A stretch of DNA of 64,000 nucleotides. Origin: Prochlorococcus sp. AG-402-N21 (GTDB lineage: Bacteria; Cyanobacteriota; Cyanobacteriia; PCC-6307; Cyanobiaceae). The notes below the pieces were generated by a model. The model ran no database searches. It saw only the letters and a list, made by a program, of their open reading frames with translations, and was not told the DNA's origin. Where the stretch lies: the NCBI GenBank assembly GCA_003216435.1, contig QCIW01000005.1:1-64000 (forward strand), written 5' to 3'. The stretch's first letter is position 1; the number at the start of each line of letters is the position of its first letter. Made by a program: the position numbers and the translations under genes. Shown here in pieces: positions 655 to 38,673 of this stretch.

Positions 655-2137
<1,483 letters not shown>

Positions 2138-19030: not shown

Positions 19031-19113
19031 GAATTCACTCCGAATATTGACTTAAGTCCCCGTTCCTTGGCTTAAGTCGTAATGCGGCTCGCAAATGTAG
19101 CGAGTTGAACGTT

Positions 19114-19133
19114 TTTGTAGCGGTTGCTACAAA
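19114..19133. promoter_or_regulatory. palindromic operator candidate
   Basis: TTTGTAGC-GGTT-GCTACAAA is a perfect 8-bp dyad, 84 nt upstream of the DUF4278 start. A further half site, AATGTAGC, is at about 19094-19101. The symmetry and repeated half site suggest a binding site for a dimeric regulator. A HIP1 octamer (GCGATCGC, 19243-19250), rare in Prochlorococcus, is nearby. Confidence 0.4.
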
Positions 19134-20122: not shown

Positions 20123-21832
20123 TTAAAGTAATAAATATCTCTGAGCTAAAGGTAGAATTTCTGCTGGTTCGCATGTAAGTAATTGACCATCCGCAAATAC
20201 CTCATAGGTCTGTGGGTCTACTTTCATTGAAGGTCGCTTATTATTATTTCGCATATTTGACTTGGAAAGATCTCTTGTGTTCGCGACAGCGAGACAAGTT
20301 CTCTGTAAATTAAGTTTTTCTGGAACTCTTGCGTCCATAGCTGCTTGACTCAAAAAAGTAATACAGCTACTAGAAATAGCATTTCCTAAAGATCCAAACA
20401 TAGGCCTCCCATAGACAGGTTGAGGAGTTGGTATTGAAGCATTGGCATCTCCCATTTGGGCCCAAACTATGCTTCCTCCTTTTATTATCATTTCTGGCTT
20501 AACTCCAAAGAATCCTGGTTTCCAGAGGACTAGATCTGCAAGCTTTCCTTCTTCTATAGATCCTACATGATGGCTTATTCCATGAGCTATTGCTGGATTG
20601 ATAGTTACTTTCGCGATATAGCGTTTTAATCTATTGTTGTCATTTCTAGCGGTATCTTCAGGGAGAGTACCTCTTTGCATCTTCATTTTGTGAGCCGTTT
20701 GGAAAGTACGACTAATTACTTCCCCTACTCGTCCCATAGCTTGTGAATCACTAGCTATGATCGAAAAAGCCCCAAGATCATGCAGAATATCTTCGGCAGC
20801 AATGGTTTCGCGTCTTATTCGTGATTCGGCAAAGGCTACATCTTCCGGAATCTTGGGATCTAAATGATGGCAAACCATAAGCATGTCTAGATGTTCTTCA
20901 AGAGTATTTTTCGTATAAGGTCTTGTTGGATTTGTACTACTTGGAAGGACATTGGACTCTTCGCAAATTTTTATAATGTCGGGAGCATGACCACCACCGG
21001 CACCTTCAGTGTGAAAAGTATGTATTGTTCTACCATTAATTGCTTTAATTGTGTCTTCTACAAATCCAGCTTCGTTCAGAGTATCTGTATGGATGCAAAC
21101 TTGAACATCCATTTCATCGGCAACTTGTAAACAACAATCAATAGAGGAAGGAGTCGTCCCCCAATCCTCGTGAAGTTTTAAGGCGCATGCACCAGCAATT
21201 ACTTGTTCTTTTATGGCGTTCAAGTTACTTGCATTGCCTTTCCCGAAGAAACCTAGATTTATAGGTAATGCTTCTGAAGCTTGAAGCATTCGGGAAATAT
21301 GAAATGACCCAGGTGTGCATGTGGTGGCATTTGTCCCTGTAGCTGGCCCGGTCCCACCGCCAAGCATGGTTGTAACACCACTCGCAAGAGCAGTCTCTAT
21401 CTGTTGTGGACAGATGAAATGGATATGGCTATCAATAGCACCGGCTGTAAGAATTTGTCCTTCTCCAGCTATAGCTTCAGTACTTGGCCCAACTAAGATG
21501 GTTACACCTTCTTGTGTGTCTGGATTACCTGCCTTACCTATACCCACAATTTTGCCATTTTTAATACCTACATCAGCCTTGACAATTCCCCACCAATCAA
21601 GAATTAAAGCATTTGTAATTACCGTATCTACTACCCCTTCATCTCGAGTTAACTGTGATTGCCCCATCCCATCTCGAATAACTTTCCCCCCTCCAAATTT
21701 GACTTCATCTCCATAAACTGTTCTGTCTTCTTCAACTTCAAGTATTAAGTCTGTATCAGCTAAGCGTAATCGATCTCCAGTTGTAGGACCATATGTTTGT
21801 GCATAAGCCCGGCGAGAAATGTGAAAAGACAT
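20123..21832 (-). CDS. ureC: urease alpha subunit
   Basis: Catalytic subunit of nickel urease, which hydrolyses urea to ammonia and carbon dioxide. The 569-aa protein has every active-site residue: His-136 and His-138 (SHIHF), the carbamylated nickel-bridging Lys-219 (LKLHEDWG), His-248, His-274, the flap Cys-321 and His-322 (VCHHLDP), and Asp-362. Numbering is offset by two from the Klebsiella enzyme. It is the last gene of ureDABC, 7 nt downstream of ureB. A full length and intact active site indicate a working enzyme. In Prochlorococcus it makes ammonium from urea for glutamine synthetase. Confidence 0.99.
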
Positions 21833-38337: not shown

Positions 38338-38366
38338 AAGAGCTAGTTACTATGTAACCAGCTCTT
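38338..38366 (-). terminator. terminator of the 33-aa mini-gene
   Basis: AAGAGCTAGTTAC and GTAACCAGCTCTT form a 12-of-13 pair stem around TAT. Read on the minus strand it is followed by TTTTTTT, and it lies 26 nt after the stop of the 38393-38494 gene. Confidence 0.85.
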
Positions 38367-38392
38367 AAATAATTAATAGGATTCAACGATTC

Positions 38393-38494
38393 CTATATAA
38401 ACCTATTAATTATGAAACCTTTCAAGGCAGGAGCCAGAGAATGGCAAACTGATTTTCTTCCCATTGACTCCTGACCGATTGGTAGATGCGACAA
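38393..38494 (-). CDS. 33-aa protein with an extreme Shine-Dalgarno
   Basis: Found by direct translation. TTG start; sequence begins MSHLPIGQESMGRKSVCHSL and ends APALKGFIINRFI. The 13 nt just upstream of the start codon (AGGAGGTGATCCA, positions 38507-38495) are perfectly complementary to the 3' end of the 16S rRNA in this window. Spacing from GGAGG to TTG is near 8 nt, ideal. With its own terminator 26 nt after the stop it forms a complete unit of roughly 170 nt. One Cys, no membrane span. Strong ribosome sites are uncommon in this genome, so high translation is likely. Function unknown. Confidence 0.65.
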   Translation of the reverse strand: MSHLPIGQESMGRKSVCHSLAPALKGFIINRFI

Positions 38495-38673
38495 TGGATC
38501 ACCTCCTTTATGAAACTTTCTATAAATTAGCAAGAAATATCTTTTGGTGCTGTAGGCAATAACACAATTTGCTGAAAATAAAGCAATACAATTGGCCTAT
38601 ATATACTATTTATGCGGATATTTAACTAGATAATTATCTCCTATACCCCTAACTTTCATAAAGCTAGTCTTCA

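Follow-up and report, generated by a model that had tools for sequence, protein, structure and literature searches.

Results

Parts of a candidate mini-gene on the minus strand

We find that a 33-codon open reading frame (ORF) in Prochlorococcus sp. AG-402-N21 is probably a real, self-contained microprotein gene of Prochlorococcus that is translated through an extended Shine–Dalgarno helix, as judged by comparing its sequence with that of its relatives. The window that was analyzed is the entire 64,000-nucleotide stretch taken from contig QCIW01000005.1. The parts assigned to the unit, and the evidence used to place them, are as follows.

38524..38529, minus strand: candidate −10 promoter element TAATTT (consensus TANNNT), placed by the position of the hexamer relative to the GGAGG box
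38495..38507, minus strand: extended Shine–Dalgarno box AGGAGGTGATCCA, recognized by complementarity to the 16S rRNA 3′ end and by conservation across genera
38481..38506, minus strand: 26-nt box conserved at the nucleotide level, GGAGGTGATYCATTGTCGYATCTACC, comprising the ribosome-binding box, the start and codons 2–5
38393..38494, minus strand: 33-codon ORF MSHLPIGQESMGRKSVCHSLAPALKGFIINRFI, recognized by an open frame in relatives and an invariant TTG
38396..38422, minus strand: C-terminal module KGFIINRFI, adjoining the stop, recognized by synonymous excess and by its reuse in a second mini-peptide
38371..38411, minus strand: hairpin AATTAATAGG / CCTATTAATT, which overlaps the final codons and the stop codon, supported by arm-swap energies and covariation
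38338..38366, minus strand: intrinsic terminator, a 13-bp stem followed by a T run
2125..2137, plus strand: 16S rRNA 3′ tail, the pairing partner of the box

The minus strand reads AAAGGAGGTGATCCA at 38509–38495, and the 16S rRNA encoded in the same 64-kb window ends in ...GGCTGGATCACCTCCTAA. An earlier note on this DNA, made from the sequence alone, had drawn attention to a perfect 13-nt match to the 16S 3′ end, and the complementarity of positions 38507–38495 to positions 2125–2137 bears this out. Its placement of a TTG start directly 3′ of the box likewise holds, with TTG at 38494–38492, TAG at 38395–38393, and a product of 33 aa, as does the terminator that it had located 26 nt past the stop, where the stem (38366–38338) forms 13 pairs and runs into the T tract. 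A comparable stem and T run is found downstream of the ORF in most relatives.

Matches to Rfam families in the window comprised only rRNA, tRNA, the Glutamine-II riboswitch, and the ureB-type sRNA, and none was located at the mini-gene. The sole RF01704 match (Glutamine-II riboswitch, the type found in the Yfr6 mini-gene leader) lies at 19051–19114 on the minus strand. Positions 21391–21676 on the plus strand score 119.6 bits to RF02514 (5′ ureB small RNA), a match that could stem from conservation of the ureB coding sequence and need not indicate an sRNA.

Pairing of the box with the 16S rRNA tail

The duplex formed by the full box and the 16S tail has a calculated energy of −24.5 kcal/mol, and that of the HL form is −21.6 kcal/mol (members occur as 33-codon LL and 40-codon HL versions). 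As background we took a 424-kb sample of the same genome, whose 329 ORFs with a length of 120 aa or more gave −19.3 kcal/mol, an upper bound, as the best tail pairing at any candidate start and −5.8 kcal/mol as the median. The mini-gene box is thus the strongest tail pairing in the 424-kb sample, in agreement with the earlier remark that the site stands out among mostly weak ribosome sites.

Exact matches of 10 to 13 nt to the 16S tail also occur elsewhere, including one other 13-mer in the 424 kb, and therefore match length by itself is weak evidence; the case is carried by position and conservation. Among the matches listed, no other lies directly 5′ of a start codon as in the mini-gene. The sequence AGGAGGTGATYCADTG occurs once each in 20 of 201 genomes of the family, and 19 of these 20 sites are the mini-gene, with the remaining one inside a GroEL-like coding tail. 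Within the 12-nt GGAGGTGATCCA, three positions vary: position 3 (A to G) and positions 10 and 11 (both C to T). With every one of these replacements, the base can still form a standard or G-U pair with the 16S rRNA.

The "ideal spacing" originally ascribed to the box applies to its GGAGG core but not to the full 13-nt helix. Because the latter abuts the start codon, the complete helix is incompatible with TTG in the P site. We infer that the box acts as a Shine–Dalgarno element and not as some other RNA signal.

Promoter, leader, and hairpin

In most LL members, a TANNNT hexamer is present 23 to 24 nt upstream of the GGAGG box, with 25 and 26 occurrences at −24 and −23, respectively, among 57 distinct upstream regions (counts that may overlap), and in HL members it is found at −24 in 83 of 96. 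The spacing of the hexamer would place transcription initiation near 38516–38518 and, because it sits 23 to 24 nt upstream of the box, would leave a leader of about 23 nt.

Only LL members have the hairpin that overlaps the stop codon (arms at 38411–38402 and 38380–38371); it is absent in HL. Folding each LL member with its own arms gives a mean energy of −11.6 kcal/mol; exchanging arms among members weakens this to −9.9 kcal/mol (SD of means 0.22). Covarying arm pairs include AGA/TCT, AGG/CCT, and AACAGG/CCTGTT. The earlier note had also offered a second reading, in which the plus strand mimics the 16S tail and acts as an RNA decoy. This reading is unsupported because every conserved signal (the −10 box, start, frame, stop, and terminator) is on the minus strand.

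Distribution across genomes

A DNA search of 60 relatives recovered the unit in several genera. The earlier suggestion that other genomes be searched for the ORF together with its box proved productive: with a 26-nt pattern permitting up to three mismatches, the unit was recovered in 120 of 400 Cyanobiaceae genomes, almost invariably as a perfect match even though three mismatches were allowed, and a reversed control pattern gave no match in the same 400 genomes. Note that the count of 120 includes one genome (G194) whose three-mismatch match does not resemble the unit. Box-carrying genomes span about a dozen genera, and the conservation of the unit, as read from these sequences, is beyond chance. 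A protein profile recovers the family in essentially the same genomes as the nucleotide pattern, and thus the latter did not simply overlook members whose box has decayed.

Genus g17, which holds MED4, carries the unit in 60 of 68 genomes. The eight genomes of this genus without it are near-complete HL genomes, and the unit is therefore dispensable in at least eight cases. A contig of this genus, which we take to be MED4, bears a 40-codon ORF at 662008–662130 on the plus strand. Outside the family, 213 genomes of the class yielded just two matches, each with two mismatches and unlike the unit in sequence, and a scan of named genomes for the box returned matches in Prochlorococcus records only. 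Viral contigs contained no exact match to the box and phage records gave no tblastn match to the peptide, and on these searches we rejected a phage or viral origin.

The neighboring genes vary between genera, and consequently the unit stands alone, with no fixed downstream gene. This variation, together with the terminator directly 3′ of the unit, also led us to reject a role as leader peptide for a downstream gene.

Evidence for translation

All 48 distinct 33-codon (LL) versions and all 91 distinct 40-codon (HL) versions keep the sense frame open, whereas neither of the other two sense frames is open in any of them. The TTG start is invariant across members, and the stop is TAG in LL and mostly TAA in HL. 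Peptides range from 26 to 40 aa, and the differences in length amount to whole codons. An open frame in every member, in-phase indels, a −10 box, a terminator, and the synonymous excess at the C terminus described below all agree with the earlier view of the locus as a self-contained mini-gene.

Selection on the codons is unevenly distributed. Among single-base codon variants, 9 of 16 are synonymous in LL codons 24–33 (0.56) and 12 of 16 in HL codons 32–40 (0.75), compared with about 0.23 expected for each. In the middle of the ORF the observed and expected synonymous fractions are nearly equal (0.27 versus 0.25, and 0.26 versus 0.27). Codons 2–5 are kept at the nucleotide level, with no synonymous change at TCG and CTA, and the context of the last codons of the nonapeptide is almost fixed as TTT ATA TAR. 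The expectation of conservation with synonymous-rich change was accordingly correct for the C-terminal module and failed for the middle, which changes as if neutral, and for the N-terminal box, where conservation acts on nucleotides.

The synonymous excess within KGFIINRFI indicates that this segment is translated. As far as these substitution patterns reveal, purifying selection at the amino acid level is confined to the C-terminal module, so that in most members the bulk of such selection appears to fall on these last nine residues, and the middle resembles a linker. We also noted a frame on the antisense strand of the mini-gene that is uninterrupted in 80 of 91 distinct ORFs from HL (for example, locus L081, 2954–3094, minus strand) versus 9 of 48 from LL; this open frame in HL is possibly a by-product of codon choice.

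Separable modules

The two ends of the gene occur independently of one another. A second mini-peptide, exemplified by MLTRLFAHLSIKSLLKAKGFIINRFI, ends in the same KGFIINRFI followed by a stop, starts with ATG, and has no Shine–Dalgarno sequence. Longer relatives of the C-terminal motif that resemble a membrane helix occur at L296 (G067) and L306 (G076). Conversely, five genomes carry the box and N-terminal part with no C-terminal module, and one of these, G088, retains only the 12-nt box, the start, and the first codons. The loci concerned are as follows.

Second mini-peptide: L294, about 1933–2013 (G027); L293, 398–475 (G131); L291 (G065); L292 (G014)
Box and N-terminal part, module absent: L009/L066 (G011); L010/L077 (G027); L013/L298 (G102); L065/L297 (G126); L308 (G088)

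Because each half occurs in genes that lack the other, and because G027 bears both halves apart from each other, the box half and the C-terminal half are separable.

Discussion

Proposed mode of expression and alternative explanations

Comparison among genomes demonstrates the gene with its box, start codon, frame, and C-terminal module, as well as the hairpin of LL members. We propose that the TANNNT promoter would give rise to an mRNA whose leader is about 23 nt long. To this mRNA the 30S subunit would be recruited by a long Shine–Dalgarno helix of 11 to 13 bp involving the whole free 3′ tail of 16S rRNA. Initiation would then take place at the invariant UUG, a peptide of 26 to 40 aa would be made, and transcription would end at the terminator of the unit itself. 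The most economical guess for the product is a small regulatory or protein-binding peptide that acts via its C-terminal nonapeptide. With the extended helix, peptide output would vary with access to the 16S tail, as in the rpsU system of Flavobacteriales; by analogy with that system, such dependence on ribosome state is conceivable, and we advance it tentatively, as a proposal that is more apt to be wrong than right.

Conservation of the first 26 nt exceeds what coding requires, and because codons 2–5 are kept as nucleotides the 5′ end may have an RNA role. Taken further, this would make the transcript a dual-function or mainly regulatory RNA, acting through the invariant 5′ 26 nt as a seed and through its hairpins at the 3′ end, with the ORF secondary. 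Such a reading would accommodate the retention of the 26 nt where the C-terminal module has been lost (G011, G027, G102, and G126), the residual 12-nt box, start, and first codons of the module-less G088, and the covarying LL hairpin over the stop, and dual-function RNAs have been proposed in Prochlorococcus for Yfr6 and Yfr9 (PMC2518516). Nevertheless, the nine C-terminal residues are under clear amino acid-level selection, the frame is never broken, and the hairpin is absent in HL, and we regard a dual-function or mainly regulatory RNA as unlikely. Pairing with the ribosome could also run past the tail, given that the box plus GUCGYAUC after the start can pair with the tail and with the 3′ strand of helix 45 over about 24 bp, with UU of the start codon bulged, at −39.9 kcal/mol (CAT form) or −37.9 kcal/mol (TAT form). 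In this way the mRNA would bind immature or free 16S rRNA and serve as a sensor or trap in ribosome assembly. Past the 13-nt match, the additional pairing outdoes 4962 (CAT) or 4872 (TAT) of 5000 shuffles and 311 (CAT) or 310 (TAT) of 311 real ORF starts, and all changes seen at box positions 1–20 keep the pairing. However, this pairing was noticed after the fact and is only moderately improbable by shuffling, and it is broken by three of the four change types seen at positions 21–26, and for these reasons we treat it as a lead only. Moreover, mature ribosomes contain helix 45 in its folded state, and a duplex spanning the start codon would prevent initiation. We accordingly give the sensor or trap very little weight. 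A broader version, to which we assign a slight chance, holds that the mini-mRNA is a ribosome sensor assembled from a tail-pairing box (possibly reaching into helix 45), a neutral linker, and a C-terminal nonapeptide acting in the exit tunnel or at termination; if true, the unit would report on or hold ribosomes and would yield no conventional protein.

The small, mostly basic peptide with its own terminator also invites comparison with type I toxin-antitoxin units, in which a small membrane-active peptide is paired with an antisense RNA. Pairs of this type have been proposed for Yfr6/Yfr14 and Yfr8/Yfr9 (PMC2518516), and in G067 and G076 the C-terminal module has relatives that resemble a membrane helix. 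Yet the helical hydrophobic moment of the peptide lies within the range of shuffled peptides, by which we rejected a membrane-active toxin, no conserved antisense signal was seen, and the gene is single copy with a middle that is free to change, making a toxin-antitoxin arrangement highly improbable. Finally, the second exact 13-mer in 424 kb of the same genome might suggest that the match is a coincidence in front of a spurious small ORF, an explanation that becomes next to negligible given that 120 of 400 genomes from about a dozen genera preserve the unit in its entirety and that the C terminus shows codon-level selection.

Relationship to known systems

The proposed microprotein gene has a working likeness to rpsU of Flavobacteriales, in which a 9- to 13-bp helix lets ribosomes lacking bS21 make more bS21 (PMC9976891). 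Both cases involve a single gene with a 9- to 13-bp helix to the 16S tail in bacteria that otherwise seldom use Shine–Dalgarno initiation. In contrast, rpsU encodes bS21 and its helix and autoregulation have been tested experimentally, whereas the mini-gene is known from sequence comparison, starts with UUG, belongs to a different phylum, and encodes a peptide with no match to the bS21 family. We do not claim membership in an rpsU-type class because the peptide matches no ribosomal protein family.

Among Prochlorococcus transcripts, Yfr6 is similar in being an in-phase mini-gene of about 33 codons that was formerly listed as a noncoding RNA (PMC1242208, PMC2518516, PMC2864571). Its leader is long, with the ORF starting at nucleotide 97, and contains a riboswitch, unlike the short leader predicted here. 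The two are distinguished by their positions in MED4 (662008–662130 for the mini-gene versus 627729–627972 for Yfr6) and by the Glutamine-II riboswitch, which is absent from the mini-gene leader. We also rejected Yfr17 (MED4 664667–664930), which is 2.5 kb away and differs in place and gene orientation. By these positions, the mini-gene appears to be none of the named Yfr RNAs that could be placed.

Cyanobacterial microproteins such as Norf1 and Norf4 likewise have short stand-alone transcripts for a conserved protein of unassigned function, as described in the accessible portion of their report, which mentions no extended Shine–Dalgarno box for them and states that Norf4 homologs are lacking in marine Synechococcus and Prochlorococcus (PMC5126843). 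The peptide has no match in Pfam or NCBIfam, and GFIINRF appears in none of the papers searched. An earlier account reported 113 new small ORFs in MED4, and the ORF described here may already be listed, nameless, among them.

Prochlorococcus has been reported not to rely on Shine–Dalgarno initiation (PMC5607370). Despite this, many Prochlorococcus genomes keep one gene with a near-maximal Shine–Dalgarno helix, an invariant UUG start, and a conserved microprotein. If the reading as a translated microprotein gene is correct, it reveals a widespread gene family that is missing from the protein-family libraries we searched, and it would provide, outside Bacteroidota, a concrete and testable case in which access to the 16S tail makes translation selective.
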